In this document: piece by piece, positions 23,148 through 46,586 of the stretch
Numbering within the stretch: the stretch's first letter is position 1
Layout of the letters: each line of letters opens with the position of its first letter
Origin: Haloplanus salinus
GTDB taxonomy: Archaea > Halobacteriota > Halobacteria > Halobacteriales > Haloferacaceae
Length of the DNA stretch: 64,000 nucleotides
NCBI RefSeq assembly: GCF_003336245.1
Contig: NZ_QPHM01000003.1
Span: 1 to 64,000, forward strand
Direction: 5' to 3'
Translations under genes and position numbers: made by a program
Notes under the pieces: model-generated
The model's input: the letters and a program-made list of their open reading frames with translations, nothing else
The model's database searches: none
What the model was told of the DNA's origin: nothing

Positions 23148-24345
23148 TTGAAATGGTGTCCGAAACCGACCCGACTGAAATACTACATCGACGTTCATCG
23201 CCAAGCGTACAACTACACCCGGTACGAATACGGGAACGTAGATGCTGACAACATCGGGTCGGCGTACAAACACCACTACCGACTCCCTGATTGGAAAGAC
23301 GAGTTCTCCGTGTTCTCCGAAGTGGACTCGAAGGCTCTACAACCAACCGTCACACGGTTCTACCGGAACCTCAACGGACTTTCCGAGCAGAAACAGAACG
23401 GTCGAAAGGTCGGGAAACTCAAATCGAAGTCTCCGACTGAGTACCACAGCATAACGTATTCGCGGTCTGGCTTCGAACTCAAAGACACGAGTGGCCGACA
23501 CGCGACGCTAGAACTCTCCAAAGTCGGAGATATTCGTATTCGCTACCACCCTGAAATCCCTGACCAAGCAGAGGTCAAAGAAGTCATCATCAAGAAGGAG
23601 ACGACCGGAGGGTGGTTCGTCGCGTTCGGGCTCGAAACTGGAGATGCTGACTTGCCTGAGAACCCCGACGTGGACTCGCTCAACACGAGTAACAGCGTGG
23701 GAATCGACCTCGGCATCCTCAACTACAGCCACACCAGCGACGGCAAGACCGTGGACTGGCTCGACTCAGAAGACGACTACGAGCGACTCCGACGCGAACA
23801 GCGTAAGTTGTCTCGAAAGGGGAAAGGCTCGAACAGCTACGAGCAACAGCGAGTCGAAGTAGCGAAGGTGAAGCGTCATGTTCCTCGGAAGGTACTTGAT
23901 TATCAGCACAAACTCAGGACGTGGCTCGTCAAGGAGTATGACGCCGTGTTCGTGGAAAGCCTGAACGTCCAGAGTGTGCTTCAGGACGGCGGGAACGCTC
24001 GGAACAAGCAGGATGTTGCGTGGCGACAGTTCATCACCTTGCTTGAATACAGGGGAGATTTGCACGGAACGCACGTCGTTCAGGTTGATGCTCAGGGCAC
24101 GACGAAAGAATGTGCGTCGTGCGGTGTAGAGACAGCGAAACCTATCCGGGTTCGTGAGCATTCGTGTCCGGCGTGTTGGTTTGAAACGGATAGATGCAAA
24201 CGCTTCATTGAACGTGTTGCAGAGAGGCTCTGCTGCATTAGGGCTGGGATGGCCCGAATCAACGCCCGTGGAGACGGCGTCTCTCGAACCACTCGACCCC
24301 GAGGCGATTCACACGGGCCACCCCCTCATACCGACCGATGGGAGA
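23148..24345 (+). pseudogene. tnpB: decayed IS1341-type tnpB
   Basis: The frame begins abruptly (LKYYIDVHRQAYNYTRYEYG), lacking the first about 25 residues of TnpB. It shows RuvC-I (VGIDLGILNYSH), a RuvC-II segment altered to VFVESLNVQ (usually VEDL), and the zinc ribbon (CASCGVETAKP ... CPAC). At about 24196 two bases are missing inside FETDR-DANASLN, so the RuvC-III Asp is out of frame. The shifted frame continues LNVLQRGSAALGLGWPESTP up to the 3-prime end of nrdA. No tnpA or clear ends are present. Confidence 0.85.
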
Positions 24346-26040: not shown

Positions 26041-26042
26041 CG

Positions 26043-27053
26043 TTAGAACATGTCCTCCGCGGTCACGCTCTGGGCGTGCTTGTTGTACGTGGTCGACCGC
26101 TTGCTGAAGAAGTCGTTATCCTTCGTCATCAGAATATCCTCGTCGAACCACCGCGTCTCCTCGAGCAGGCCCTCGTCCGGCTCGAATATCGGCTCGACAC
26201 CGACGTTTTCGAGACTCCGGTTGAACCGGTCCCGCAGGAACGCGTCGACGTGCTCCCGAGGAAGGAACTCTAAATCGCCCTCCTCGAATATCCAGTCCAG
26301 TATCTTCATTTCGGCCTCGAACGCCTGCCGACAGGCCTCCTGGATCTCTTCGTCGAACTCCTCGCCGAAGAGATCTGGATTCTCTTCCCGAATCGTCTCC
26401 ACCAGTTCGACACCGAACAGGCCGTGAATCTGCTCTTCCTTGCTGGTCGCCTCGACGGCATTCGCGATCCCCTTGAACTTCTTTTCGTGTTTATCGAAGC
26501 TCATCATAATGAGGAACTGCGAGAACAGCGAGACGTGCTCGACAAACGTGGAGAACAGCAGGATACTCATCACGTACTCCTGTTTGTCGTCACTCTCACG
26601 CTTCTTTAGGTACTCGTCGAGGTACTCGACCCGCTCCTCGATTGCCGGCACATCGGTCACCTCCTCGAAGTCCTCCGTGATCCCCAAGATGTCGAGGAGG
26701 TGGCTGTACGCGTCCATGTGTCTGACCTCGCTCTCCGCGAAGGTCATGCCGACGTTCCCGACCTCGGCTTTGGGCATCTCGTTATAGATATCTGCCCAGA
26801 ACGTCTTGACTTGGACCTCGATCTGTGCGATGGCCAGCATCGTCCGCTTGATGACTGTCTTCTCGGCAGGAGTCGTGTTGATCTTGAAGTCTTGAACGTC
26901 TCCTGAAAAGTTGAATTCCGTATGGACCCAGTAGCTGTTCCGTATCGCGTCCTTGTAGTCGAGGAAATCGGTGTACTCATACGGCTTTAGATGCGTTCGC
27001 TTGGAGAAGATGTCAGTCTCCGCATCTCCACCTGTGGTCTTGTTTTCAGTCAT
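26043..27053 (-). CDS. nrdB: class I ribonucleotide reductase, small (radical) subunit
   Basis: About 336 residues from ATG 27053 (MTENKTTGGDAETDIFSKRT). An ATG at 27179 would add 42 residues without similarity to the family. The ferritin-like fold carries the di-metal ligands: ESEVRHMDAYSHLL gives Glu and His ligands with the radical Tyr four residues after the His, FVEHVSLFSQF gives a further Glu, and SKEEQIHGLFGVE gives Glu and His. The radical Tyr is present, so this is an ordinary Tyr-radical enzyme needing oxygen for assembly. It sits between nrdR and nrdA in one operon. Confidence 0.95.
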   Translation of the reverse strand: MTENKTTGGDAETDIFSKRTHLKPYEYTDFLDYKDAIRNSYWVHTEFNFSGDVQDFKINTTPAEKTVIKRTMLAIAQIEVQVKTFWADIYNEMPKAEVGNVGMTFAESEVRHMDAYSHLLDILGITEDFEEVTDVPAIEERVEYLDEYLKKRESDDKQEYVMSILLFSTFVEHVSLFSQFLIMMSFDKHEKKFKGIANAVEATSKEEQIHGLFGVELVETIREENPDLFGEEFDEEIQEACRQAFEAEMKILDWIFEEGDLEFLPREHVDAFLRDRFNRSLENVGVEPIFEPDEGLLEETRWFDEDILMTKDNDFFSKRSTTYNKHAQSVTAEDMF

Positions 27054-27218
27054 TGCCACGTACCCCGGAGAAATCGTCCTCTGTTGGTCTCTGTTTCCGT
27101 CGTTCATCGGTTCGGTGCGTCCGAATCCACTCGTGTCGCTTTCGATACATTTGTTCGTAGTCCATGCTCGCCCGGTCAAGGATTGACCGAACGTCGGTTT
27201 GACTTGCGTGTGTTCGTG

Positions 27219-29394: not shown

Positions 29395-30609
29395 TCACTC
29401 GATCGTATCGGCCAGGACATCCTTGACCACAGCAGGGTCTTCGAGCAACGTATGCTCCGTATAGCTCCCCTCAGCACTCCCGCCGCTATGGCGCGATTGC
29501 TCGACGATATCCAGAAACGCGTGTTCTTTCAGGAGATCACGAACCCGGCGAAGCGAAAGCGAATCGGATCCCTCCTGTCGGCAAATCTGCTCGTAGAGAT
29601 CGTAGACTCGAGTCGTACGGAAGCCCTGATTGTCGGGCGTAGTCTCATCTTTACGGGCATTGATCGACAGCATCGTCAGTGCCTGCAGCACATACCGTGA
29701 GTGCGGTGTCGAGCCACGAATCAGTTCCCTGAAGCGGTCGGTTTCGGCGCGTTCGCGGGCCTGTGTCACGAACTCTTCGCGAACGGTCTCGGCCTCGGTC
29801 GACTGGGCTATCTCACCGGCGTAACGCAGGATGTCGATGGCCTTACGAGCGTCACCGTGTTCGCGAGCGGCGAGCGCCGCGGCCCGTGGAATGACGCCAT
29901 CGTCGAGTACGCCATCACGGAACGCATCGCTTCGAGCGACCATGATCTCGTTGAGTTGAGAGGCGTCGTAAGGCGGGAAGACGAACTCGCGTTCGCAGAG
30001 GCTCGATTTGACCCGTTCGTCCATCCGATCCTTGTATTTGATCTTGTTACTGACGCCGATCACGCCGATCTTACAGGAGTCGAGTTTTCCGGCCTCGCCG
30101 GCTCGCGAGAGCTGCATCAAAATATCGTCGTCCTCCAGTTTATCGATCTCGTCGAGGATGATCAACACGACGTCGTATTCGGCATCGAGGATCTTCCACA
30201 GCCGCTTGTAGTAGGTGGCGGTACTGATGCCCTTGTCCGGAATATAAATATCCGTCTCGTCAGTGTTGACACTGCTCGCAATCGTCTGTACTGCCTGCGT
30301 TTCGGTTCCATCCTGCGCACAGTCGACGTAAGCGTGGGACGCGCTGACACCTTCCTCGTCGGCCGTCTGGACGAGTCGACGAGACACGTATTTGGCACAG
30401 AGCGATTTTCCCGTGCCAGTCTTGCCGTAGATGAGGACATTACTCGGAGACTGACCGAAAATACCGGGATTGACGGCGTTCGCGAGCTGACCGATCTCCT
30501 CGTCCCGGCCGACGATCCGTCCCTCCTCGGGGAGGTGATTAATTTCGAGTAGCTCCTTATTCACGAAGATTGGGTCCTCCCGAATGAATAGATCGTCAGA
30601 TTCGGACAT
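29395..30609 (-). CDS. orc1/cdc6: Orc1/Cdc6-type replication initiator
   Basis: This 404-residue AAA+ protein is preferred from ATG 30609 (MSESDDLFIREDPIFVNKEL); an ATG at 30663 lies inside an origin box region and is less likely. Walker A is YGKTGTGKSLC, Walker B VVLIILDEIDKLEDD, followed by sensor 1 (GVIGVSNKIKY), the AAA lid and a C-terminal winged helix (about residues 310-400). It recognises origin boxes and loads the replicative helicase. Boxes of one consensus flank the gene on both sides, so this gene and origin form one replicon unit. Confidence 0.95.
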   Translation of the reverse strand: MSESDDLFIREDPIFVNKELLEINHLPEEGRIVGRDEEIGQLANAVNPGIFGQSPSNVLIYGKTGTGKSLCAKYVSRRLVQTADEEGVSASHAYVDCAQDGTETQAVQTIASSVNTDETDIYIPDKGISTATYYKRLWKILDAEYDVVLIILDEIDKLEDDDILMQLSRAGEAGKLDSCKIGVIGVSNKIKYKDRMDERVKSSLCEREFVFPPYDASQLNEIMVARSDAFRDGVLDDGVIPRAAALAAREHGDARKAIDILRYAGEIAQSTEAETVREEFVTQARERAETDRFRELIRGSTPHSRYVLQALTMLSINARKDETTPDNQGFRTTRVYDLYEQICRQEGSDSLSLRRVRDLLKEHAFLDIVEQSRHSGGSAEGSYTEHTLLEDPAVVKDVLADTIE

Positions 30610-31250
30610 TCCTTGGACACCACGTTTCTGGTGAAATGGCTTGAGGTTTTCCCCGACACACACACACCACGTTTCCGGTGAAACTGTATGAGAGTGCGTC
30701 TACACTGCACGTGAAACGGGGGTTGTCGTCCACGGGAAACGAGGTCGAGACGGGGAAGATACGCACGCGCAGCCCTACGGGAGCGGACCTGACGAGAACC
30801 GGATCACGGAAAGACACCCCTGATAGGGGCGGTTCGACTGAATCAAGTAGAACACCGAAGCGACGAACTTCGCTTCGTTCCCTGATCAGCGATGGAGTCA
30901 CTGAGCTATAAACGTGCATAGATAATAAACCCCCGTCAGACATATGACGTAAATCCGAGCGATCTCGTCCCAGTATCTTTTACTGTCGGCTTCATCGGAA
31001 ACGCGGTGTGTCCACAACGGGGTTCGTCATCAGTACTCCAGGGATTCACGTGACTTATCGGCTCTATCCAGCGTTCGTGGTTCTCTGATCCGTCGTTAGT
31101 GTCGTGAGCTGTGCCGCGATTCATATCCACCCTGTTGACTGGAGTCACGTTTCACCGGAAACCCGGTGTGTCTGTGCGGAGTTTCGTGAGTTGACTCTAC
31201 CAAGCAGCCCGCGACCCGTCTCGATTCACCGGAAACCCGGTGTGTCTTCA
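30610..31250. other. replication origin region upstream of orc1
   Basis: Boxes of one consensus (TTCAYCGGAAACSCGGTGTG) occur at 30617-30635 and 30663-30682 on the minus strand, and at 30991-31010, 31151-31170 and 31225-31244 on the plus strand. The inner boxes face each other across about 300 bases that include an AT-rich run at 30897-30930 (CTATAAACGTGCATAGATAA), a plausible unwinding element. A further degenerate box (CCACGGGAAACGAGG) lies at about 30731. This is the layout of haloarchaeal Orc1-dependent origins. No gene is supported here. Confidence 0.8.
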
Positions 31251-32287: not shown

Positions 32288-35200
32288 TCAGGCTACTGCC
32301 GCTTCGTCGGATGGCACCGGCCCTTTTAACAACGCCTCGAACACTTTCCGTTCTGCCTTGCGGAGGTGCTGGTGGAACGTCGGCGGCGAGACGCCCAGCG
32401 ACTCGGACACCGCTTCGCCGTCGCTCTCGCGGGGCCACTCGAAGAAACCGGCATGGAAAGCCACCTCGACCGCCGCCCGCTGGCGCTCGGTGAGTTCCTC
32501 GTGGAGGAGCCGCTCGAATCGCGCCCTCGTATCGTCGGTTCGGGAGAACTGCCGCTGGGCGACCAGATCGGCCATCGGATAGGCGTCCTCGACCGCCTCG
32601 GCGATCGACCGGTTGTCGACGGTCGGCGGCAAGTGAACCGTCATGTGATAGTCGCCGTCCTCGATGACGGCCTCCTGGACGTAGCCGCCCCGCGAGGCGA
32701 CGACGGATAGCACCGGTGGCTCGGTCAGGGTCACCTCGAAGCGGTGGCGGTCGCCGCGTTGGCCGAGGTCCTGGACGGACTCCCAGTGCGGGACTGCATC
32801 GATGATCGATCCAACGGCGGGCCACGCATCGTCGGTGGCGGTCCCATACAACAGATAGGATCCGTCACCGGTCGGAACTGCCTGGTCGTGCGTGATTTGT
32901 CCCTCACTGCTGGCCTCGATCTCGAGTGCCTGGAACACGCCCGGGATGCGGAATTCGAGTTCGACCACCTCGTCGCTCATCAGTGCCTGCTTGCGCTCGA
33001 CGGCGGCGATGGCATGGCCCACCACTTCCCCGAGCTGGGTGAGCACCTGGCGCTCGGTGTCATCGAAGGCGTAGGGCCGGTCGGCGTAGACGTTCAACAC
33101 GCCGTGGGTCGCCCCCTCGTGGACGATGGGGATGGCCGCCGAGGAGCGGATGTCGTAGGCCTCGATGTGGTCGCGCCATGGGTCGTGTCCCGGATTTGTC
33201 TGGACGTCCTGAGCGACCTGTGGCTCGCCGGTCAGTAGCGCCTGCGCAGTCGGCCCGTTGCTCCGCTCGTCGTCGAGGTCGGTAGTGATCGTAACCCCGT
33301 CTAGGTACCCATCGACGCCGGCCTCCGTGCGGAGCTCCACCTCTCTGGTGACGCCGTCGACTTCACCAATCCAGGCGAACGAGAACGACTCGGCGTCGGC
33401 AAGGCCGCCGACGACGGCATCCTCTATCTCCTCGCGCGTCGACTGGGCGACGACGGCGTCGGTGATGTCTTGGACGACCCCGTTGAGGTTGTTGACGGCT
33501 TCGAGCTGCTCGCGCTGGCGCTTCAGTTCACGCTCGTGTTCCCGGTGTTGAGTGACATCCTGGGAGATGGTCAAGCCGGCGAATATCGACCCGCTCCCGT
33601 CACGAACGGGGACGACCTGGAACTGGCGGATCTGGTCGTTGAATTCGAACTCGAATTCGCTGACCTGGCCCTCGAAAACGGCGCGGAATCTGGGTTCGAA
33701 CGTGTCGGTGAACTCCGCAGGAAGGTGCTCGGGAATCGTATCTCCCTCTAGGTCCTCGATTGAAACGTCCAGTCCCTCGAACGCCTCGCCGCCCGCGATC
33801 AGATATTCGAGGTCCTCGTCGAACAGGATGATGGCTCCGTTCGGGTAGTTCTCGACGAGTGTTCTGTAGCGGCGCTCGGCCTCTTCGAGCTCTCGCTCGT
33901 ACTGCTTGCGCTCGGTGACGTCGGTAACCGCCCCCGGGAAGGTGACCGGGTCGCCGTCCTCACATACGACACGCGCTTTAGCCAGCACCCATCGGTACTT
34001 GCCGTTGGCATTCTCGACGCGGTACTCCTCTTCATACTCGCCGCACGACTCGACCGCTTCGTCGATCTTCCGCTCGATCCGATCGCGGTCGTCTTCGTGG
34101 ATGTTCGAGAGGAACCGTTCGAGCGAAACGCCCTCGCGGGCCGCCTCGGGGTCGACGCCGAAAGTTCGAGCGAACGACGGGCCGGCGACGAACTCGTCCT
34201 CTGGGATGTGCCACTCCCAGGTCCCGACTGCACCCGCCTCGGTCGCGGCCTCGAGCTGAGTCTTGGCCTCCTGGAGCTCTCGTTCGCGTTCCTTCCGGTC
34301 AGTAATATCCTGGGACATTGCCGCCGCGGCGAAAACCTCGCCGTCGTCATCTCGAACGGGCACGATTCGGAACGTGATGAACCGCTCTCCGAGTCCCTGT
34401 TCGAAAATTTGTGTGTCCCCATTGAGCGCAGCTTCGTACTTCGGCACGAGTACCTCGGAAAGCTCGGTCGGGAGAACGCTCTCGAGATGTTGCCCCTCCA
34501 GTTCATCGACGGTCTTCCCGGCTTCCCTGAGGGGTGTGCCACCCACAGTTACGTAGCGGAGGTCTTCGTCGACGAGGGCGACGGCACCGTTGGGGAAGTG
34601 CTCGACGAGCGTCTGGAGGCGCCGCCTGGACTCATCGAGTTCCCGCTCGTGTTCCTTGCGCTCGGTGATGTCCCGAACGACGCCGACACGTCCGGATGTG
34701 TCGCCGTGTTTGTACGGGCCGAACCGTCCCTCAACGGGGACGGTCTCCCCGTCAGCCGTCAGCAACTGGAACTCCAGCGTCGCGACGTCCCTCTCGCCTC
34801 GCTGCACCTCTTCGTTCAGTTCGGCCGCCTCCTCGTTGACCTCCTCGCTGTGGATGCGCGTCACGGGTTCGCCTAGCAGTTCCTCGCGGTCGTACCCCGC
34901 CATCTCGCAGAATGCGTCGTTGACCATCGTGAACCGGTCGTCATCGTCCAGAGCCGCTACACCGTCCCAGACGGTCTCGACGAGTTGTTCGTACCGTTCG
35001 AGTTCGCGCTCCCGTTGCTTGCGCTCGGTGATGTCGCGAAAGTACACCGAGAGGCCGCTTTCCGAGGGGTATGCCCGGACCTCGAACCATCGATCGAGAG
35101 GCTCGAAGCATTCCTCGTACGTAACCGACTCCTGCGTTTTAACCGCCCGACGAAATGCCTCCTCACCCATGGTCCCTTTCGCCTCGGGGAAGACCTCCCA

Positions 35201-36400
35201 GACGACACGCCCGAGGAGTTCGCCCTCGGTTCGGCCGAGGAACTCCTCGCCTCGGTCGTTCACATGGGTGAACCGCCACTCCTCGTCGATGGCGTAGAAC
35301 GCGTCGTCGACGCGGTCGAACACCTCTGCGAGCTCGGTTTCTAAGTCGTCGCGCTGACGTTCGAGCCGGTTGGCCTGCTCTCTGAGCGGGCTGATGTCCT
35401 CACCGACCACGACGACACGATCGACTTGGCCGTCCTCGTCCTCTAGCGGGGCGGCGTGCACCGACAGCCACCGGCGCTCGCCGTCGGAGTGTTCGATCTG
35501 ACACTGCTGCTCACGGACGGCGTTACCCGTTTCCACCACTCGAGTAACCGGCTGCTCCTCCTGACTGATTGGGGACCCGTCGGTATCGTACAGCTTGTAG
35601 TCATTGAGGTCGTAGGCACCGTCGTCGTCGACGATGCCGAGAAGATCAGTGGAGCGCTCGTTCACCCGAAGGATCTCACCCTCCGAAGAGGCTACTCCCA
35701 CGCCGACGGGGACCGTGTCCAGCACGCGCTCGATTAGGTCCCGCTCACGCCGGAGTTGCTGTTCGCGCTCGCGCCGTTCGGTCATGTCTCGCGTGACCAT
35801 CGCGAATCCGAGGAGTTCGCCGTCGTCGTCGCGGATGGCGGTGATGGTGACGTTCGCCCAGAACCGCGAGCCGTCGGCACGGACCCGCCAGCCTTCGTTC
35901 ACTATCTCGCCCTCGGCAGCCGCCGCTTCGAGGGTCTTCCCGGGGACCCCCTCGGCGACGGCATCGTCAGTGTAGAAGGTAGAGAAGTGTTCGCCAATGA
36001 TCTCTTTGGGTTCGTACCCCTTCACGTGCTCTGCGCCCGGATTCCACGTCGTGATGTACCCCTCCTCGTCGAATTGGAAGATGGCGTACTCCTCGACCGT
36101 ATCGACGAGGGCCCGGAACTCCACGTTCGGTCGAACCGGCGGTCGCTGGGCCCCGTCCCCCGTCTCGCTCGCGGCCTTCGCCGGCGGCGGCCGCCACCAG
36201 ACCCGTCCCCGCGCCCCGACCTTCTTGGTCCTGAGGCGTTCCTGGTCGACCAGCCGTTTTAGACGCTCGTAGGTGCTTCGCCGGCCTACGTCGAGGCGTT
36301 CGGTCACCTCGTTCGTTGTCAGCGGTTCATAGGCGTCCCCCGTGGCCTCGACCACGTCGAGCGTTTCACGCAAGCTTGTGGTCAGTCCCGTCGATTCCAT
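32288..36400 (-). CDS. bat-like multi-PAS/GAF transcriptional regulator
   Basis: A protein of 1370 residues from ATG 36400 (MESTGLTTSLRETLDVVEAT). Order of domains: N-terminal winged helix (TTNEVTERLDVGRRSTYERL), seven consecutive PAS-like units (about residues 85-960), and a GAF domain (about 990-1140; SIPIVHEG-like AAIPIVHEGATHGVLNVYAD). A bacterio-opsin-activator domain and a C-terminal HTH-10 (LTERQRAAVEVAFHAGFFEW to FHQHLRKAERKVFEALL) complete it. No kinase domain is present, so it is a one-component sensor-regulator like Bat, which responds to oxygen or light in Halobacterium. Repeated ITERKxxEREL linkers join the PAS units. The ligand is unknown, and the number of PAS units is high. 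Confidence 0.92.
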   Translation of the reverse strand: MESTGLTTSLRETLDVVEATGDAYEPLTTNEVTERLDVGRRSTYERLKRLVDQERLRTKKVGARGRVWWRPPPAKAASETGDGAQRPPVRPNVEFRALVDTVEEYAIFQFDEEGYITTWNPGAEHVKGYEPKEIIGEHFSTFYTDDAVAEGVPGKTLEAAAAEGEIVNEGWRVRADGSRFWANVTITAIRDDDGELLGFAMVTRDMTERREREQQLRRERDLIERVLDTVPVGVGVASSEGEILRVNERSTDLLGIVDDDGAYDLNDYKLYDTDGSPISQEEQPVTRVVETGNAVREQQCQIEHSDGERRWLSVHAAPLEDEDGQVDRVVVVGEDISPLREQANRLERQRDDLETELAEVFDRVDDAFYAIDEEWRFTHVNDRGEEFLGRTEGELLGRVVWEVFPEAKGTMGEEAFRRAVKTQESVTYEECFEPLDRWFEVRAYPSESGLSVYFRDITERKQRERELERYEQLVETVWDGVAALDDDDRFTMVNDAFCEMAGYDREELLGEPVTRIHSEEVNEEAAELNEEVQRGERDVATLEFQLLTADGETVPVEGRFGPYKHGDTSGRVGVVRDITERKEHERELDESRRRLQTLVEHFPNGAVALVDEDLRYVTVGGTPLREAGKTVDELEGQHLESVLPTELSEVLVPKYEAALNGDTQIFEQGLGERFITFRIVPVRDDDGEVFAAAAMSQDITDRKERERELQEAKTQLEAATEAGAVGTWEWHIPEDEFVAGPSFARTFGVDPEAAREGVSLERFLSNIHEDDRDRIERKIDEAVESCGEYEEEYRVENANGKYRWVLAKARVVCEDGDPVTFPGAVTDVTERKQYERELEEAERRYRTLVENYPNGAIILFDEDLEYLIAGGEAFEGLDVSIEDLEGDTIPEHLPAEFTDTFEPRFRAVFEGQVSEFEFEFNDQIRQFQVVPVRDGSGSIFAGLTISQDVTQHREHERELKRQREQLEAVNNLNGVVQDITDAVVAQSTREEIEDAVVGGLADAESFSFAWIGEVDGVTREVELRTEAGVDGYLDGVTITTDLDDERSNGPTAQALLTGEPQVAQDVQTNPGHDPWRDHIEAYDIRSSAAIPIVHEGATHGVLNVYADRPYAFDDTERQVLTQLGEVVGHAIAAVERKQALMSDEVVELEFRIPGVFQALEIEASSEGQITHDQAVPTGDGSYLLYGTATDDAWPAVGSIIDAVPHWESVQDLGQRGDRHRFEVTLTEPPVLSVVASRGGYVQEAVIEDGDYHMTVHLPPTVDNRSIAEAVEDAYPMADLVAQRQFSRTDDTRARFERLLHEELTERQRAAVEVAFHAGFFEWPRESDGEAVSESLGVSPPTFHQHLRKAERKVFEALLKGPVPSDEAAVA

Positions 36401-36657
36401 TACGAGTGTTATCCAACGCTCCCTCTTTAACACTCCGACAACGGAAGTGAAGGGATCCATCCAAGTGGATTCGATCGGTTTCTACAGCGCACGTACATCA
36501 GTTACATCGCGTCAGTACAGTTCTCCAGCGTGGTATCATCACGCACGACCCGTCGCATCTGAGGTACCTAATCAGTTAGAGAGTAGTCTTACCCTTTCCA
36601 GGAGACTGTCTAATTACACACCCAGGAGGCCTCACAGTGGGCCCGGGTACCAACACC

Positions 36658-38108: not shown

Positions 38109-38150
38109 GTTACCCCACGTTTCCGAACTAAACCCCGAAAGTGGGGTAAC
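38109..38150. repeat. inverted repeat GTTACCCCAC ... GTGGGGTAAC
   Basis: The ten-base arms match the outer arms of the palindrome at 29191-29230. The interior on the minus strand reads GTTCGGAAACGTGGGGTAAC, which resembles an origin recognition box (GGAAAC followed by a G run). The repeat sits between the PIN-like frame and the 3-prime end of the tubulin-like operon and could also act as a terminator for both. Confidence 0.55.
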
Positions 38151-39427
38151 TACACCCGCGGAATTTGGCTCTCCCAAAGGAGCGGAGAGGTCCGACACCT
38201 CTCGTTCCTCATCACGTCCGATACCAGTTCCTCGGTCACATCCGTCGAGACGTTCACTCCCGACGTCCACGCCCGGGTGCGGGCGTCGGCCGGTCGCGCC
38301 GATCGGCTCCAAGTGTTCCTGCAGGGCCATCTCCCAGCCGGCGTCGCCGTCGCTATCTGCGGCGAGGTTGACGTTGTACCGCCATTGTTCCCTGCTGGCA
38401 GATCTTTCGTGGATGCAACTTTCCACTCTATGATACCCGGAGACCGAATTCGGACGAAATCCGCATTAGCTGGAATTGATCTGTTGGTGTGATTGAAATT
38501 TCTATTATTCCTAATCTTAAATGGGCCATCGCTGACTGGGGTCGAGTTTGTCTCGTTGACGTACTCTAGAATCAGGGTATCGGCGGGAGTCGACCCACTC
38601 ACGACAACGGCTGGGTCAGTATCATTGATTTCAACGGTGACATCGTGGGCCCAGGGAGCCTCAGCGGCCCCATCGAGTGTAGCGAGACCCAACGGGGAGA
38701 ATAAGGCCCCCGCAACGGCAAAATACAACAAAGCGAGTACTCCGACAACTGCCACTCCGTACCCAATATCGACCGCAATTTCCGCAATCGAATCGCCATC
38801 GATTTCGCCATCAGATGCATCAGGCTCGGGATTCATCAGCGCCTGCGTTTGCCCGATCGGTTCCAGCCCCATATACGGCCCTTTCTCGACAATAAGGTCG
38901 TACGTGCTCATGGGGCCAGTATGGGTGCTTTCGCCTTCGGTGACCGCTATTTCCATACCTACCCGGGCACCACCAACCTCGCTGATCAATTCGAACGCTT
39001 TCTCATAGGAACTAACCCCGAAACGGAGGCGCTCGCCCCCAGACAGGAGTTCGCGCGCCCGACTACGCTGACGATCCGTCCCCACCTGTCCTGGATCGGC
39101 TGCGTCAAGATTACTCAGGACGTTCTCCCCGGATTCGGAGCGCTCGATTTTAAGTCCATGATCGGTCTCGGCGACGTCAATGACGGCCTCCCGGAATTCA
39201 CGCAGGAGGGCGTGATCACTGGATGTTATGTAGCTCGCGTAATATTGTTCCATCCGCCCGCTCGAGCTTTCGTATGCCCGGAAGTACGTCGTCAACTCGA
39301 ATGGCTGTGCATCCGAGATGGTGAACACAACCCCGTACCGGCTCATGTTTCGAATCTTCTCGTTTCGTTCGCCATCCGGATCGTCTAGGGGATAGCCACG
39401 GGAGTCATACAGTGTGACCTCGCTCAT
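38150..39427 (-). CDS. membrane protein of the tubulin-like operon, chimeric C-terminus
   Basis: This 425-residue third gene of the coupled operon overlaps the GTPase gene by 4 bases. The N-terminal about 190 residues are soluble (SRYGVVFTISDAQPFELTTY, SSYEKAFELISEVGGARVGM). One or two membrane helices follow (DIGYGVAVVGVLALLYFAVAG), then a beta-rich domain (VTVEINDTDPAVVVSGSTPA). From about residue 345 on (SPQIATATPAGRWPCRNTWS...) codon use changes to GC-rich and the sequence resembles out-of-frame DNA, so the original C-terminus was probably replaced by a fusion near 38395. No known family is recognised. Confidence 0.75.
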   Translation of the reverse strand: MSEVTLYDSRGYPLDDPDGERNEKIRNMSRYGVVFTISDAQPFELTTYFRAYESSSGRMEQYYASYITSSDHALLREFREAVIDVAETDHGLKIERSESGENVLSNLDAADPGQVGTDRQRSRARELLSGGERLRFGVSSYEKAFELISEVGGARVGMEIAVTEGESTHTGPMSTYDLIVEKGPYMGLEPIGQTQALMNPEPDASDGEIDGDSIAEIAVDIGYGVAVVGVLALLYFAVAGALFSPLGLATLDGAAEAPWAHDVTVEINDTDPAVVVSGSTPADTLILEYVNETNSTPVSDGPFKIRNNRNFNHTNRSIPANADFVRIRSPGIIEWKVASTKDLPAGNNGGTTSTSPQIATATPAGRWPCRNTWSRSARPADARTRAWTSGVNVSTDVTEELVSDVMRNERCRTSPLLWESQIPRV

Positions 39428-40881
39428 CCGTATTCACCCAGTCGTTCAAGCAGTTTGTCGAAGCCGACCGTTGCGACGGAGCCGCTGTTTCGCATCGGTA
39501 CTCGCTCTCCCTCGTCGTTAACTCGTGTTTGATAGAAGACCGGATGAATCTCGCTCCCTGCCGATTGAGCAACCAGAGACTGGATGGTCTGATTCGCACT
39601 GAGCCGATCGTTGGTGAACTGTTTGAAGTCCCCGTAGTACTGCTCGGCATTCAGTCCCTTCTCCTCACGGAAGCGTTCGGCTAGCACGTCGGCCTTGCTC
39701 GCGACGAGGATGATGTCCTTATCATCTGCAGCCTGTAAAATCTCGAAATATGGCTCGATATCAAGTGGTTCATTGTTCGTGTAGCGCTCACAGTCGATCA
39801 GAAGAATCAGTGTGTCAGCCTCCTCAACCGACTCGTGAACTCGAGAGAGCGTTATCGGCATCTCTGAGCGATCCATCGTACCGAGCATAGCATCGGGTAT
39901 CTCTTCGAGCCACTCGCCGGCGTAATCAAGCCCTGACAACTGGATATTCATCGGAAAGACTGAGCCGTAGACATACTGGAACTTGAGCGCCTCAAGTTCC
40001 TGCGTCCGTGTGGCACTGATAAACCAGCCTTCTTGTTGACGGTCAAGTTCCCCGACAAGATTCATCAAATCCTGACTTGGGTTCAGTGGTGTCGCCGTTT
40101 CTTCATCGCCACTGCCACTGTACCGGTCGAGCGCTTCGAGATAGGCACCGACCAGTAACAGGCTCTTCCCGGACGCCTTTGGTCCAAGGACGAGAAAGTC
40201 CCTTCGTGCATCGTATTGGACGAACCGTTTAGTGACGACGACGAAGCCACACACTAAAACCGCATTGAACGCAACCTGTTGGGCACCGCCGTGGACGTCG
40301 AACGAGCGCGTGGGCTCGATGATGGTAAACTGCCCCTCTCCAGTGAAGTCAAACGGGACTGGGTAGACCAAATGATATTCGAGGAATCCGATGACGGTCA
40401 TGATCGTTAGCATATAAAAGACGAGCTTTGATGCACGGCGCAATTCAAGGGTCTGAGAGCCACGAGCGGCTAATAATTCCCGTCCACCGCCGATGAGAGC
40501 GCCACCCAGAAGGCCGAACACTAACCACATGAGTGTATCGCCGAAATCGATGTTCGGAAGTAGTAGCCCCCGCGCGGACAGCAGCAGAATCCCGATTACG
40601 CTCCCACCGAACAGCAACACTCCCTGTAGTCGCTTTTTCGTATCGTAGGTCATCAGAAGAAGCGATCCAAAAAAGAGGCCAATAATGAACGTAGCTACGG
40701 CCTCCGTCTGCATGCCAAAGAGGTTGAGTGCGTAGAACAGTCGTCGTGGAATGCCGGCCCGTTGCCATGCTTCGCCGAGCATCGGCGTGAGTAGGGCCGC
40801 GAAGACAAGGATAAGAATAAGATAGACGACTAGCTGGACCTTCTCGCGGTTCTCTCGGAGCGCCTCGATGAACCCTGCCAT
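39424..40881 (-). CDS. membrane-anchored P-loop GTPase
   Basis: A 485-residue protein with five or six membrane helices in the N-terminal 220 residues, then a cytosolic P-loop NTPase domain. The P-loop is GPKASGKSLL (residues 233-242), G3 is SGLDYAGEW (DxxG at 319-322) and G4 is VASKADVLAE (SKAD at 395-398). This fits a Ras-like/TRAFAC GTPase. It starts 3 bases after the tubulin-like gene and overlaps the next gene by 4 bases. Fusion of a small GTPase to a multi-span membrane domain suggests that it recruits or regulates the tubulin-like polymer at the membrane. Confidence 0.85.
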   Translation of the reverse strand: MAGFIEALRENREKVQLVVYLILILVFAALLTPMLGEAWQRAGIPRRLFYALNLFGMQTEAVATFIIGLFFGSLLLMTYDTKKRLQGVLLFGGSVIGILLLSARGLLLPNIDFGDTLMWLVFGLLGGALIGGGRELLAARGSQTLELRRASKLVFYMLTIMTVIGFLEYHLVYPVPFDFTGEGQFTIIEPTRSFDVHGGAQQVAFNAVLVCGFVVVTKRFVQYDARRDFLVLGPKASGKSLLLVGAYLEALDRYSGSGDEETATPLNPSQDLMNLVGELDRQQEGWFISATRTQELEALKFQYVYGSVFPMNIQLSGLDYAGEWLEEIPDAMLGTMDRSEMPITLSRVHESVEEADTLILLIDCERYTNNEPLDIEPYFEILQAADDKDIILVASKADVLAERFREEKGLNAEQYYGDFKQFTNDRLSANQTIQSLVAQSAGSEIHPVFYQTRVNDEGERVPMRNSGSVATVGFDKLLERLGEYG

Positions 40882-40884
40882 CTG

Positions 40885-43800
40885 TTATTCGGAATCTGAG
40901 GGATCGTGACCCGACCGATCAACCATCTCACTAGCGTCGCGATGGGACGAGTCCTCTATCGATCCATCTTCCATAGCCGAATGGTGGTCTCTTTCGTGCC
41001 CGTTCGAGCGCTCTGAGTTGTCCGCACTCTGTGGTGCCTCCTCGGTGTCCTCTTCGTCGGCTCCGTACCAGACCTGCTCGCTATACTGATCGAGGAGCCC
41101 TTGCACGACAGCGTCCTCGTCTTGTAGCAGGAATTCGAGATCCTCGGTTGATTCAATATTGAGCGTGTCGGTTCGGCGGATGTAGTAGCCGTCATCGAGG
41201 CCGAGACTATGGTGAATACGGATATCAACGTCTGGATTACTGGCCCACTCATCATACCCGCTAGCGTAGCCATCAGCCTGAATCACCTTCCGGATGTTAT
41301 CGAGGAAGACACCATCAATGAACACACCAAGGCCGATATCCCAGTCGCCACCAATGGGAGGGCTCCACGCGCTGTATCGCTGTTTTGTCGGGTTCCCTTC
41401 CAGATCGAATGCCTCCCGATATGTCGATTTCAGATCGATTGTCTCCCCATCGATATTGTCCACGGCGGGGCTCATGAGCGCGACTCGAACCCGAAGGTCG
41501 CTGTACCGCCGACCGCGGTGATTTAGTTTCCGACGCTGAAGCCCCGTGTACTTCCGGTCAAGTGTGTTCTTTGCGAGTTCTTCGAGGCTCTCACGCAGCC
41601 GATTGCGCTCATGCGGATCGGCGAAAAGATCGGTTTCGGCGAGCGTCTCGTTGCCGGTCGCTTGGAGCACGTCGTCGGGCTGAATGTTCTTAATGAAGAC
41701 GTAATCTTCCGACTTGACGGCGACGGAGCCACCGGCATCCTCGTCGAATGTGGCAAGTGACTCGCGGAATTCAGTGTTGTTCTGCTCGAACGTGCGCCGG
41801 TGGGCGTTAACCGCCTCGAAGAGGTCGATCGTCTCCTCATACAGTTCCATTTCGACGGTCAGCTCGTCGATCCGAGCCTGCAAGTTTTGACGTCTGGCCG
41901 CCAAGTCGTCTGTCTCGACGAGTTCGCGTTCGAACGCTCGGCGGACGATCTCGCGGCAGGCCTCGCGATCGATCGGTGTCGTATCGAGTTCCGTCTCCAG
42001 CTCAGCGATATCTCCCTCATTTGGTTCCTCGTCAACGGCATCACGCAGCGCTCGAACGATGTCGGTGCGGAGATCACTGGCTTGCTGTTCGACTTTCCGG
42101 ACAACCGCGTCGGCGTCGTACTCGATGTCGACACGGAACTCATCAGGCGGCCCCAGTGAGAACACGCCGGCGTCATCAAGGCGATTTGACGCCATTCGGA
42201 ACGTCTTCTGGGCGTCCTGTTTCTCCTCAGCAGTTGAGGACTCCCAAGGAGTGAGTGATTCGAACGTGCTCTCTTCCTGTTGCATCGTAAGATGCGCCTT
42301 TTTTGCGTCGCGAAGTTCGGAGAGCGACTGGTTGATCGCTCGCTTATCCGCTTCGACGGAAACGCCCATCGGATGGAGCGTGCCTTCGAGTTGATCGAAT
42401 GCCTGATTTACCTCACCGCGGTCCACATTATCGACTTCGTCCGCAGTCTCGGTGTTGACAACTTCACTCATGTAGCTCGCGAGTGCTGAGTGCAGTGCCG
42501 CAAGATCGGCCTCGACCGCCTCCACGTTGAGGGTCTGTAGTTGTTCCAGATCGTCTTCGACAGTACGTTTCCATTTGGAGGTGCTAGCCTTGATCTCCTC
42601 TTGTTGGTCCTCCCGAACCTTCTCTAGTTCGGCTTCCGTCTCCGCGAGATCATCTTCTAAGCGCTCCAGTTTCTCAACTGAATCATCTAGTTGCGACTGC
42701 AGTCGCTGAAGGATCCCACCTGCACTCGTACCCACATCCTCTGTACCGAGGAGATACTCTACTGTCCGCTGGATACGGCTCGTATCAATGGCGGTCTTTT
42801 GCTCCAGCAGTCGCTTGCGACGCACGAGCAACTCGAGTTCTTGACTGAGTACGTCGACCAGTCGCGCGTCGACGCTATCTTTGAACGTCGTCTGTTGGTT
42901 CGGCTCTGCGACCCCTGCCCGGAGCGAGCCACCGATGACATCAACCTGATCGCCGATATCCTCGGCCTCGTTTCTCGCATCAGAGACGATGTCTTTGAAG
43001 ATGCCGACCGATTTGTAGTCGAGTTCGCCGAAGAGTTCGGAGTCAAGCAGAGACTCGAAGGTGTTCAGCCGCTCAGCAAGGTCGTTCTCATCCTCGCCTC
43101 GAAGCCCACCCTCGGCATCGTCGAACTGTGTATCAAGGAATAGTTCAACCTCTTCGTAGATATCGCGCTCCGCGTCCATCGCTGACTCTTTCAGATCGAG
43201 GAGCTCTTGGAATGTGCCGCGTGCTTCCTGCACGGCATCAATATTATACCGGAGAATCTGGGGAATACCAACGGTGAAAGGTGCGAATTGCGGAGAGCCA
43301 CTGAACACGTCTTCCATCCCCTGCGTGTTGTAGTAGCCAGCAATCAGATAGGTAGCAGCCTCGTCAAATTGCTCAAGCATTTCATCTGATTCGACTCGGT
43401 TGCCTCGCTTGCCGTCGAATCCTGTTGGATCGATCGGCATGAGGATCCGATCTTTGAACAGCTGATCGCCTTCGAGGCTAAGTCGTTCAAGCTCCGAGAG
43501 CGCGGCGAAGGCATTCGCACTTTCACGCAAGCCTTCTGTGTGGTTTGGCAGGACACCGAATAGCGTGATGTCTGCGGTCGGCATCTTCTGAGCCAGTTCG
43601 GTTGCAATATCGACGAACAGACCCGATCCCGTACCGCCACCAAGACCGCCGATAATCGCCACCTCACCCTTACTCGGGATGTCGACGAGTGTGGCCAGTT
43701 CGTCATCCTCGGCGTAAGCCTTGTAATACATCGCTTTCCCCAGACCACGCTTTCGCACGGCCCCCTTGGCGAAATTAAGATTCTCTTCGATGTGATCCTC

Positions 43801-44181
43801 GTCGATCCACCAATTCCCCTCGTCAATTCCGTTACCAGCGACAATACGGGGGACGACATCTTCTCCCGTAAGATCGATCCGGCTGTTCAACATGATATTC
43901 TCGGTGATCAGCTTATATCGAATATCGATATCACCGACACGTCCCTGATTCGTATCCCGAAGCTCCGCTTTGAGTTCATCGCGACGTTGCCGAATCGCCT
44001 CGATGCGGTTGAGATCGTCATCACGCTCCTCTTCGGCAGTGTCTAAAAGGGTGATCGTAAGCTGCTTTGGGTCCCGTCGTGGTCGAAGAATTTCGCGAAG
44101 AAGCCAATCAGATTCGAGTAGCTCCATCCCGATGTCTTTCCCCGCTCCCCCGATAGTGAAGACCCGATCCGGTACGGTCAT
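40885..44181 (-). CDS. large FtsZ/tubulin-like GTPase with coiled coils
   Basis: A 1098-residue protein. The N-terminal third carries the tubulin-superfamily GTP-binding motifs: FTIGGAGKDIG (residues 9-18, T1 loop position) and the signature GGLGGGTGSGLFVD (178-191, T4), with a NTQGM/NxHTEG-type segment (LPNHTEGLRE at 211-220). Long coiled coils follow at about 470-590 (LERLEDDLAETEAELEKVRE) and 770-830. A C-terminal domain of about 250 residues precedes an acidic Ser/Asp-rich tail. FtsZ and CetZ have only 350-400 residues, so this is a distinct large member, like the Tubulin_2-type FtsZ-like families. It is the first gene of a three-gene coupled operon. Confidence 0.9.
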   Translation of the reverse strand: MTVPDRVFTIGGAGKDIGMELLESDWLLREILRPRRDPKQLTITLLDTAEEERDDDLNRIEAIRQRRDELKAELRDTNQGRVGDIDIRYKLITENIMLNSRIDLTGEDVVPRIVAGNGIDEGNWWIDEDHIEENLNFAKGAVRKRGLGKAMYYKAYAEDDELATLVDIPSKGEVAIIGGLGGGTGSGLFVDIATELAQKMPTADITLFGVLPNHTEGLRESANAFAALSELERLSLEGDQLFKDRILMPIDPTGFDGKRGNRVESDEMLEQFDEAATYLIAGYYNTQGMEDVFSGSPQFAPFTVGIPQILRYNIDAVQEARGTFQELLDLKESAMDAERDIYEEVELFLDTQFDDAEGGLRGEDENDLAERLNTFESLLDSELFGELDYKSVGIFKDIVSDARNEAEDIGDQVDVIGGSLRAGVAEPNQQTTFKDSVDARLVDVLSQELELLVRRKRLLEQKTAIDTSRIQRTVEYLLGTEDVGTSAGGILQRLQSQLDDSVEKLERLEDDLAETEAELEKVREDQQEEIKASTSKWKRTVEDDLEQLQTLNVEAVEADLAALHSALASYMSEVVNTETADEVDNVDRGEVNQAFDQLEGTLHPMGVSVEADKRAINQSLSELRDAKKAHLTMQQEESTFESLTPWESSTAEEKQDAQKTFRMASNRLDDAGVFSLGPPDEFRVDIEYDADAVVRKVEQQASDLRTDIVRALRDAVDEEPNEGDIAELETELDTTPIDREACREIVRRAFERELVETDDLAARRQNLQARIDELTVEMELYEETIDLFEAVNAHRRTFEQNNTEFRESLATFDEDAGGSVAVKSEDYVFIKNIQPDDVLQATGNETLAETDLFADPHERNRLRESLEELAKNTLDRKYTGLQRRKLNHRGRRYSDLRVRVALMSPAVDNIDGETIDLKSTYREAFDLEGNPTKQRYSAWSPPIGGDWDIGLGVFIDGVFLDNIRKVIQADGYASGYDEWASNPDVDIRIHHSLGLDDGYYIRRTDTLNIESTEDLEFLLQDEDAVVQGLLDQYSEQVWYGADEEDTEEAPQSADNSERSNGHERDHHSAMEDGSIEDSSHRDASEMVDRSGHDPSDSE

Positions 44182-44186
44182 CGTGT

Positions 44187-44239
44187 GTGAATATCACATA
44201 CGTTGTCATCTTAAAACTGTTATCCACGGTGAATATCAC
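44187..44239. promoter_or_regulatory. two GTGAATATCAC boxes before the tubulin-like gene
   Basis: GTGAATATCAC occurs at 44187-44197, ending 6 bases from the start codon, and again at 44229-44239. The copies are 42 bases apart, about four helical turns, in direct orientation. The motif is nearly palindromic (GTGA..TCAC). They are good candidates for a repressor site covering the promoter. Confidence 0.55.
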
Positions 44240-44357
44240 CCTGGTTGACCATACTGCAGGTGTATAAGAGCAGATACCGTCTCACGGCCCACGTTGCATC
44301 CCGAGCCGATCTGATCCGGGCAAAGTACAGTTGTTTATGCTACCCTAGTGGAGAAAG

Positions 44358-46586
44358 CTAGCAGGTCCGATAGCCAAGTGTGGCCGCCTCCAGACGGGAG
44401 GTCACATCGTCAGCGGACGTGAATAGGCGCTGATTTGACGGCGTGTGCCAACTCGCCACCTTCAGGCGCGCGGCTGTCTCATCATCGATATCTGCCGTCC
44501 TCGCCAGTTCATCGATCGGCAGTCCCTGAAGATCGGTCGGCATGTCGTAGCCTGCCTCACGCAACGCTTCGATAGTCTCAGCGTCGACACCCAGAATTCT
44601 GTCAAAAGTGTCGACCTCGTCGAGCGCTTCGTCAGTTGAGACTTCGACCGATAGCTCCAGTTGCTCAATTCCTTCATCCTCGAGGAGGTCCACTGCCTGT
44701 TCGTAGCGGTCGCGTGCTTGGCGGAATCGGACGCGGGCGACCGTCTGCTGGTCGCTTACAAACGCGACGATAGCATTCTCCATGTCCGATTCAGCAGCGC
44801 CAAGGAGTTCCTGGACGTCATCAAGCGCCTGTCGGGGCGAATCGACACTCAACAGTGCGGCCTTCGCCGCTTCGAGTTCGTCACGAATCTCCGGTGCCTG
44901 ATCATCATCAACAGCTGATAGCGCTTGGTTGAAGCCTTCAACGGCATCTTCTAGTCGTGTTGCAGCACGACCGTACTCACCCTGATCTTTGGCGCGCTGC
45001 CCCTGTTCAAACGCCTGTGTTGCCTCCTCGACAAGCTCGTCCGGCTCCATATCGCTAGTCACATCCTCAACATCACGGTCAGTTCCAACATCGCCAGTAT
45101 CGTGCGTATCGCGCGACTCCGTGGTGGCCGCTACTGTATCGGAAGCCGAGCCATTCCGCAAGCCAAGATAGCTCGCTAGCAGCACCGAGCCAAGTACTAC
45201 GCTGCCGATTCCAGCGAGAAGGGTCCGGTTCTCTCTCACCATGGACAGCTGTGAGGGCTCTGTACTCATCGCTGGCGTCGCGGTACCAGTGGCCAGCGAG
45301 GTCGACACTGGTGTTTCGGTGGGTGTCGAGTCACTATCTGACCGACTATCGGTAGGGGCTGGTGTTGGCGTTGTGGTTGGAGTCGGTGTTTGAGTCGAGG
45401 TGTCGGCCGAATCAGTCCCAGGTGTAGGTGTTTCGTCGCCGACGATCGCGTACAGCGTACCATTTTCTCCGGCAGCGTATACAACCCCGTTTGAGACGGA
45501 GAGAGCAGGGTGGGCAGACGGGCTAAGTGTGTATGACCACTGCTGAGCACTCGTCGTCGGCTCAATGGTGCGGACGCCGCCGCTGATTCCAACACAGAGG
45601 ACGTCTTCGGACAGAACGGGTGAGTAGCACCGAGCACCCGCGTCGAATTGATACCGCTCAGTGCCCGTATCTGGATCAAGAATATAAAGTGTGCCATCAC
45701 CTCCGGGAACAGCCAGTATTGAATCTGTCACCGCCAAGCTTGCTGGTGATTGTATGGGGATATTCTTCGACCACTGTTGCTCTCCGAACTGTGCGGTGAG
45801 AGCAATGACTCGGTCGTTTTCGCTCGTGAGATAGAGTGTGCCGTCAGCAACTACGGGTGGTGAACGAAATCCGTTTAATACTTGCGTCTGCCAGTATCGG
45901 CGACCATCTTCAGCATCGAGTGCAAAGACCATGCCAGCTTCATTCGCAGCGTAGACGTTACCATCAACAACTGCTGGTGCTCCGTAGATTGGGCCCTCAG
46001 TGTTGAACTCCCACTGTACCTCCCCAGTTGTGGCGTTGAGGCCAGACACTCGGCCGTTGCGTCCACCGATGTAGACACTGTCACCAACGGGTGTCGGGGA
46101 CGCACCGATCGGAAGCCCAAGTGATGTGCTCCATCGTTCGCTGCCATCATCAGTGGAAAGAGCATAGACATTGGAATCCGTGGAGCTGACATAGACCGTT
46201 CCGTCGGCGACAGCTGGCGTTGAATAGATACTATTGTCCGTCCGGAACTGCCAACGTGGATTGCCAGTAGCCGTATCAAGCGCATAGACGGAGTTACTGG
46301 TGCTTCCCACGTAGGCCGTCCCATCAACGACGGCAGGTGCAGAAAATGATTCAGCCTGAACAGTGAACTGCCACCGTTCCTGGATTGATTCTGTTGGAAC
46401 TACACTTGAGCCAGTGCCAGCGTTAGTGGCAGTACTACGGTGCATTGGCCAGTTTGTAGTTGCTGAAGACTGTGCAACACCCGACATCGGAATAAGCCCC
46501 GAAGTTGCCGTCGTAACCGCCCCAAATTGAGCGAGAAGCCGCCGGCGAGAAAGCGCGGCCGTCCCCACGGAACGCATCAATAGCAC
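44358..46586 (-). CDS. Tat-exported beta-propeller with membrane span and cytosolic helical/HhH tail
   Basis: This 742-residue protein has a twin-arginine signal (SRRRLLAQFG at 13-22), then a PQQ-like beta-propeller of seven or eight repeats (about 50-385; repeated AVVDGTxYVGSxxxxVYALD units). A Thr/Pro-rich linker (385-450) leads to one membrane helix (about 455-476), an alpha-helical TPR-like region (about 510-650; QGQRAKDQGEYGRAATRLED) and a helix-hairpin-helix domain (about 661-710; ILGVDAETIEALREAGYDMP). The propeller is outside and the helical tail inside. The gene runs with the tubulin-like operon 176 bases downstream and shares its AT-rich codon use, so it is a likely partner, for example a surface sensor. 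Confidence 0.85.
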   Translation of the reverse strand: MLLMRSVGTAALSRRRLLAQFGAVTTATSGLIPMSGVAQSSATTNWPMHRSTATNAGTGSSVVPTESIQERWQFTVQAESFSAPAVVDGTAYVGSTSNSVYALDTATGNPRWQFRTDNSIYSTPAVADGTVYVSSTDSNVYALSTDDGSERWSTSLGLPIGASPTPVGDSVYIGGRNGRVSGLNATTGEVQWEFNTEGPIYGAPAVVDGNVYAANEAGMVFALDAEDGRRYWQTQVLNGFRSPPVVADGTLYLTSENDRVIALTAQFGEQQWSKNIPIQSPASLAVTDSILAVPGGDGTLYILDPDTGTERYQFDAGARCYSPVLSEDVLCVGISGGVRTIEPTTSAQQWSYTLSPSAHPALSVSNGVVYAAGENGTLYAIVGDETPTPGTDSADTSTQTPTPTTTPTPAPTDSRSDSDSTPTETPVSTSLATGTATPAMSTEPSQLSMVRENRTLLAGIGSVVLGSVLLASYLGLRNGSASDTVAATTESRDTHDTGDVGTDRDVEDVTSDMEPDELVEEATQAFEQGQRAKDQGEYGRAATRLEDAVEGFNQALSAVDDDQAPEIRDELEAAKAALLSVDSPRQALDDVQELLGAAESDMENAIVAFVSDQQTVARVRFRQARDRYEQAVDLLEDEGIEQLELSVEVSTDEALDEVDTFDRILGVDAETIEALREAGYDMPTDLQGLPIDELARTADIDDETAARLKVASWHTPSNQRLFTSADDVTSRLEAATLGYRTC

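Follow-up and report, generated by a model that had tools for sequence, protein, structure and literature searches.

What does a long tubulin-like protein do in an archaeon when its gene is packed against those of two membrane proteins? The question is raised by a locus of Haloplanus salinus, in a 64,000-nt stretch of DNA (the window) that is part of a 409-kb contig in a 3.55-Mb haloarchaeal genome. The minus strand carries all four open reading frames (ORFs) of this locus: BPR, a propeller gene; TUB, a tubulin-like gene; GTP, a membrane GTPase gene; and MEM, a further membrane-protein gene. An earlier note, made from the sequence alone, had described these four same-strand genes and the tight spacing of the last three, and both descriptions are confirmed, with 3 bp between TUB and GTP and a 4-bp overlap of GTP and MEM; BPR and TUB lie 176 bp apart. 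The note had left the choice between a membrane-remodelling and a signalling machine. The anatomy of the locus favors signalling, and the case for remodelling has not grown stronger. We propose, with about an even chance of being right, that the operon is a transmembrane signalling switch with a tubulin-like GTPase as its output.

In this scheme, outward receptors, comprising the variable ectodomain of MEM and the exported propeller of BPR with its dedicated tail, would detect a ligand or surface outside the cell. On the cytosolic side, the N-domain of MEM would act on the product of the preceding gene, the membrane GTPase, perhaps in the manner of a guanine nucleotide exchange factor (GEF) or a GTPase-activating protein (GAP), and the GTPase would recruit TUB or switch its assembly at the membrane. 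The biological output could be a local change of the membrane or envelope, or the recognition of other cells or viruses. Signalling is favored because outward, variable receptors are combined with a membrane GTPase and with kinase-fused partners. The evidence counted for the switch is the family membership of TUB, its constant GTPase neighbor, the GTP-MEM pairing, ectodomain divergence, the confinement of the BPR tail, nearby kinase fusions, MEM-propeller fusions and an inactive/active GTPase pair. TUB family, GTPase motifs, predicted topology, gene order, co-occurrence and ectodomain divergence are read from sequence, and from them we infer the direction of signalling, the MEM-GTPase contact, TUB polymerization and the output.

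By sequence profile and structural model, TUB is a tubulin-superfamily member of the FtsZ-like 1 (FtsZl1) type of Makarova and Koonin (2010; PMC2875224). The profile search suggested in the earlier note returns Tubulin_2 (E 9.6e-12) and Tubulin (E 3.8e-8), both above the Pfam cut-off, and Tubulin_2 is matched by 27 of 27 aligned relatives. The two motifs of the 1098-residue protein named in that note are T1, GGAGKDIG (residues 11–18), and T4, GGLGGGTGSG (residues 178–187), the latter representing the GGGTG(S/T)G of the N-terminal FtsZ-like domain that is an FtsZl1 trait. An AlphaFold2 model made with 27 homologues (mean pLDDT 83) has FtsZ, CetZ, TubZ and tubulins, singly or within complexes, as its listed PDB matches (E about 1e-5 to 1e-4, prob 1.00; target TM-scores 0.32–0.48), so that the tubulin/FtsZ fold anticipated earlier is recovered in the prediction. 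A further FtsZl1 trait, a C-terminal domain placed after an extended coiled coil, is also seen in the model, and the C-terminal module contains positions that are invariant in the alignment of relatives (G957, D961, N962, H991, G998, R1003).

The founder of FtsZl1, the 1051-aa Huta_2051 of Halorhabdus utahensis, is itself haloarchaeal and shares the architecture of TUB, and the TUB core is therefore not new. According to the 2010 account, FtsZl1 proteins (Pfam Tubulin_2, PF13809) share with TUB an FtsZ-like N-domain, a long helical or coiled-coil region and a size of about 1050–1100 aa; their C terminus is mostly helical, whereas the C-terminal module of TUB is modelled as α/β. Their neighbors are given there as a diverged GTPase, membrane-associated in archaea, and kinases, and their T6-H7 segment as not identifiable. 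T6-H7 was not located in TUB either: profile comparisons align only about residues 163–241, with profile alignments ending near 232 and in any case before 245; in the model, a helix is seen at 262–284 and a strand at 302–312. Neither FtsZ_C nor Tubulin_C is recognized in TUB by a Pfam scan. The invariant DN at 961–962 was considered as an equivalent of T7, but it comes after a strand and not a helix. Canonical haloarchaeal FtsZ and CetZ have the same tubulin-superfamily nucleotide domain at about one-third the length of TUB, and the second Tubulin_2 match in this genome is a separate chromosomal protein of the FtsZ/CetZ type (360 aa).

The neighbor of TUB had been described as a multi-span membrane P-loop GTPase. 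Five membrane helices are predicted in GTP, followed in order by GPKASGKS, DYAGE and SKAD, which corresponds to the adjacent, diverged membrane GTPase with a TKxD-type motif that is an FtsZl1 trait (here GSGKS/DYAGE/(T/S)KxD). Together with the Tubulin_2 match, this bears out the proposed fit to the Makarova-Koonin FtsZ-like system with a distinct GTPase; kinases near some relatives are a further likeness to FtsZl1 operons. A same-strand GTPase, either this one or its paralogue, adjoins TUB in all 41 full-length loci (40 fetched and the window), and the GTPase beside TUB nearly always has MEM next. Homologues in other genomes thus do keep company with the GTPase and the membrane partner, as the earlier note had supposed. 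The window operon has one GTPase, and a diverged TUB clade has two paralogues. In the latter, the TUB-side copy is without P-loop, DxxG and TKxD in 5 of 5 aligned loci (L068, L070, L071, L072, L074; L numbers denote loci of relatives), and the second, larger GTPase keeps the P-loop and a DxxG-like motif and has lost the TKxD lysine. Given motif loss in one copy and a retained P-loop in the other, the two look like an inactive/active GTPase pair.

MEM, the further membrane protein of the earlier note, has one predicted helix, and the end of its ORF is corrected here as probably non-native. Its cytosolic N-domain is conserved (LTIYDSxG...FFRARES...EQFYAVY) and is followed by a single membrane helix in the window-type clade. 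Of 391 genomes searched, 49 have the N-domain, and every locus whose gene order was read places it immediately 3′ of a GTPase belonging to this family. This includes nine loci (L133–L141) in which GTP and MEM occur without a recognizable TUB. Because MEM is 3′ of the GTPase in all the gene orders read, even in these loci, GTP and MEM are, on gene order, a stable pair, with TUB an added partner.

Outside the membrane, MEM varies in kind: its ectodomain consists of Ig-like or CarboxypepD_reg-like repeats, tandem repeats or a PQQ propeller, and is annotated PGF-pre-PGF in Methanohalobium. In L109 and on a Haloplanus plasmid, MEM and propeller are fused in one protein. It also varies in sequence. 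In close loci of the Halorubrum type (the more distant L049 left out), TUB is 93–97%, GTP 95–98% and the MEM N-domain 88–96% identical, and the ectodomain mostly 50–65%; the exceptions, L050/L054 and L053/L087 (73–77%), are not closest in TUB. Ectodomains are 39–48% identical in the coriense-type group and 72–85% in the Natrialbaceae-type group, where TUB is 97–99% identical. Overall, gauged against the core of the same loci, the ectodomain is mostly 39–65% identical where TUB is 93–97% and the MEM N-domain 81–96%. From these alignments, the recognition part of MEM looks exchanged or rapidly changing.

BPR provides the second candidate receptor. The beta-propeller with a cytosolic tail reported in the earlier note is confirmed (PQQ_2, E 4e-51); the helix-hairpin-helix assigned to the tail reaches only HHH_5 at E 1.9e-4, below cut-off. 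The protein has a twin-arginine-like signal, SRRRLLAQF, as read from sequence, and one predicted membrane helix (residues 456–474). Its tail (BPRC) recurs beside TUB operons behind varied ectodomains (propeller, CARDB or none; tblastn included). When nine such tails were searched over 391 Halobacteria, matches above 60 bits were found in 12 genomes only, all of them among the 31 of 391 genomes with the window-type TUB clade, and there was no strong match in a genome free of that clade. The hypergeometric probability is 6e-15, and about 4e-4 within genus g2 among the genomes listed, figures that overstate certainty since the query tails came from TUB neighborhoods and the genomes are related. 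Since about half of the BPRC receptors are encoded at a distance from TUB, the co-occurrence is not explained by their being neighbors.

These observations bear on the alternative that BPR is an unrelated neighbor and the unit comprises TUB, GTP and MEM only. The 176-bp gap, from which BPR may have a transcript separate from TUB, fits this alternative, and the TATA-like TTTTAA within it is possibly the own promoter of TUB-GTP-MEM. Propeller genes are moreover common in haloarchaea (2–59 PQQ_2 matches per genome), and most relatives have no BPR at this position. The confinement of the tail family to TUB genomes argues the other way, as do the propeller genes that many loci carry next to the operon, often in the same orientation, and the propellers fused to MEM, and we regard an unrelated BPR as quite improbable. 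The earlier inclusion of the propeller in the set therefore stands: on sequence grounds, BPR is a true associate of the operon, and its tail represents a receptor family tied to the window-type TUB. Kinase domains in the neighborhoods of relatives occur as fusions with propeller, PKD, CARDB, CarboxypepD_reg or solute-binding domains, in keeping with the kinases noted in 2010.

The earlier note had distinguished this set by an absent von Willebrand (vWA) partner and an added propeller. In relatives of the same family, the combination of vWA, Hsp70, protein kinases and propellers differs from locus to locus, so the window set is not set apart by such partners, and the distinction does not quite hold. 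A vWA-domain partner is found in most FtsZl1 operons, as described in PMC2875224; unlike these, the window copy is without an adjacent vWA, OmpA or kinase gene. No intact vWA gene lies beside the window operon, vWA being a frequent FtsZl1 associate and not a strict criterion. vWA genes do lie near diverged TUB relatives, and the TUB-GTPase core of several diverged loci, like that of Halorubrum and Haloplanus plasmids, is accompanied by varying subsets of Hsp70, GrpE, DnaJ-beta-sandwich fusions and vWA. DnaJ fused to CarboxypepD_reg/beta-sandwich repeats is found beside Hsp70 near TUB at L069:13406-17151 and L072:12514-14502. The accessible portion of the Makarova and Koonin account describes neither MEM nor the BPRC receptor family.

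Similar partners characterize bacterial GTPase/GAP1-N2 “conflict” systems (Kaur et al., 2020; PMC7159879), in which tubulin with vWA, Hsp70/GrpE with DnaJ-fused FNIII, and kinases form non-overlapping themes; the haloarchaeal loci mix all three. Those systems resemble the window operon in the glutamate after DxxG, the coiled-coil tubulin and the conserved protein encoded 3′ of the GTPase, and resemble this family in their membrane proteins, whose extracellular beta-sandwich domains are variable. With relatives only, they also share paired GTPases, Hsp70/GrpE, fusions of DnaJ to beta-sandwich repeats, vWA and kinases, and two paralogous GTPases occur in only 38% of the bacterial systems. In contrast to those systems, the window has a single GTPase. 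The DO-GTPase2 profile scores 17.2 bits against GTP, under its cut-off of 27, with weak matches in 10 of 30 relatives, and no DO-GTPase match is found in the genome itself at E 0.001. GAP1 families match 0 of 29 MEM N-domains even at E 10, though MEM holds the position of GAP1. We therefore do not claim membership, which was considered for the close anatomical likeness, and compare the two only in how they may work.

A conflict system of this kind, in which surface recognition of viruses or competing cells triggers protective or suicidal TUB assembly, would account for the patchy spread, the plasmid copies, the variable recognition parts and, by likeness to the bacterial systems, the Hsp70, GrpE, DnaJ-fused and vWA genes next to members of the diverged clade. 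However, the operon has no recurrent toxin or nuclease neighbor, the recognition domains point outward, GAP1 domains are not detected, and no known defence family matches apart from a coiled-coil artefact (LmuB, the sole PADLOC match, is coiled-coil-based). We consider such a function unlikely.

The proposal of 2010, a membrane-remodelling machine in which TUB filaments shape vesicles or the envelope and the GTPase and MEM would anchor them structurally instead of forming a signalling chain, seems to us comparably doubtful. It draws on the family-level prediction in PMC2875224 and on the predicted membrane location of the partners. GTP-driven tubulin relatives, for their part, commonly form filaments. 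Remodelling leaves unexplained the fast-changing ectodomains, the kinase-fused receptors, the dispersed BPRC receptors and the TUB-less GTP-MEM pairs, and the canonical FtsZ C-terminal elements are not found in TUB.

Several observations weigh against the signalling switch as well. The catalytic T7 loop and filament contacts of TUB were not located by profile comparison; surface proteins in general may have ectodomains that change fast; the co-occurrence figures overstate certainty, as described above; and TUB paralogues of about 560 aa occur without a GTPase neighbor in L103 (Halorubrum aquaticum) and L104 (Halorubrum rubrum). Both species carry the full operon besides the short paralogue. 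In addition, the MEM N-domain has no significant fold match in the PDB, nor any match in a viral structure library, although its model is confident (pLDDT 88, pTM 0.85). The top of its non-significant fold list (E 0.01–0.7) holds the longin/DENN GTPase regulators FLCN-FNIP2, SMCR8-C9orf72, Lst4 and Mon1-Ccz1 together with TagF, amid PAS/GAF proteins, and we treat the longin/DENN likeness of the model as a lead only. MglA-MglB, a bacterial polarity GTPase with a roadblock GAP, offers an analogy in how the parts may work, namely a GTPase together with its regulator, possibly one with a longin/roadblock-like fold; here, unlike in MglA-MglB, the GTPase is membrane-spanning and tubulin-linked. A full chain for the switch, from exchangeable sensors (MEM, BPRC receptors, some kinase-linked) through a longin/DENN-like domain to the membrane GTPase and assembly of a tubulin-like scaffold, is a bolder reading that we consider unlikely as a whole.

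The genomic setting bears on a last alternative, a cytoskeleton for DNA or plasmid segregation of the TubZ or PhuZ type. The window lies on a 409-kb replicon, Halorubrum and Haloplanus plasmids carry the TUB-GTPase core, and TUB matches TubZ in both sequence and fold searches, though only distantly. Many copies are nevertheless chromosomal (contigs >2.9 Mb), the conserved partners are membrane proteins and not DNA-binding adaptors, and searches of phages and IMG/VR return no phage or viral TUB relative, so that we give this alternative very little credence.

TUB relatives are patchily distributed, and the operon is apparently mobile. In a quick tree, the window TUB groups with those of a Haloferacaceae metagenome-assembled genome (MAG), Halarchaeum (Halobacteriaceae) and Halobonum, outside the main Haloferacaceae clade, a placement that suggests acquisition by transfer, with paralogy as an alternative source. 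TUB-GTP-MEM also occurs in the same order on plasmid pMETEV01 of Methanohalobium evestigatum (L142), a methanogen outside Halobacteria. The earlier note had read the AT-rich composition of the block as a sign of transfer. The block is indeed poorer in GC (54–57%) than the whole window (60.3%) and its two large neighbors (64–67%), but stretches at about 2–7 kb and 26–32 kb of the window are equally AT-rich, so base composition alone is weak evidence of transfer.

The full chain with a longin/DENN-like domain, if real, would be a prokaryotic counterpart of the control of the cytoskeleton by surface signals. The present analysis joins two separate predictions, of membrane remodelling and of GTPase-centered conflict systems, and proposes upstream parts of FtsZl1 in archaea: a co-occurring receptor family, a membrane protein constant inside and variable outside, and paired active and inactive GTPases. 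We found no functional study of FtsZl1, predicted in 2010, in the open-access literature. TUB-GTP copies occur in Haloferax profundi (L094) and Haloarcula japonica (L100), which are related to genetically tractable species, so function is directly testable.

Table 1. Coordinates, in the window, of the operon, its parts and other genes of the replicon
Feature	Position	Strand	Basis
BPR, 742 aa: signal, PQQ beta-propeller ectodomain, one membrane helix, cytosolic tail	44358..46586	-	Pfam, helix prediction
BPRC, cytosolic tail of BPR, residues 505–742	44361..45074	-	tail searches
BPR-TUB gap, 176 bp	44182..44357	-	TATA-like TTTTAA at 44211-44216, ~30 bp ahead of TUB start
TUB, FtsZ-like 1 / Tubulin_2 protein, 1098 aa	40885..44181	-	Pfam, model, fold search
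TUB N-terminal nucleotide domain, ~residues 1–312, T1 and T4 motifs	43246..44181	-	Pfam, model, alignment
TUB helical / coiled-coil region, ~residues 314–872	41566..43242	-	model secondary structure
TUB C-terminal α/β module, ~residues 897–1038	41068..41493	-	model and alignment
GTP, membrane P-loop GTPase, 485 aa	39424..40881	-	five predicted helices and GTPase motifs
GTP membrane-helix region, about residues 17–216	40234..40833	-	helix prediction
GTP P-loop GPKASGKS (G1)	40162..40185	-	alignment
GTP DYAGE (G3, conserved glutamate)	39913..39927	-	alignment
GTP SKAD (G4)	39688..39699	-	alignment
MEM ORF, 425 aa	38150..39427	-	ORF; one predicted membrane helix
MEM native part: cytosolic N-domain ~1–200, helix 225–243, short ectodomain to ~363	38339..39427	-	helix prediction, alignment, model
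MEM 3′ end, last ~60 residues, probable non-native repeated plasmid DNA	38150..38338	-	GC 0.71, repeats
Multi-PAS/GAF Bat-type regulator	32288-36460	-	
Orc1/Cdc6	29395-30663	-	
Ribonucleotide reductase, large and small chains	24346-27179	-	
IS605-type OrfB	23148-24386	+	

The 3′ end of the MEM ORF, joined to the ectodomain, is considered probably non-native because its GC content is 71%, it cannot be aligned with relatives and its DNA recurs on the replicon: the repeat at window positions 38140-38352 is found again at C3:367975-368188 and C3:396954-397045 with 84–86% identity. On Haloplanus plasmids, a similar segment spans the 5′ end of a vWA-protein gene together with sequence upstream of it. 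Further afield, a candidate division WOR-3 MAG (L112, 882-2465) encodes the N-terminal half of a TUB with 27% identity, which could be a bacterial relative or a misbinned contig.

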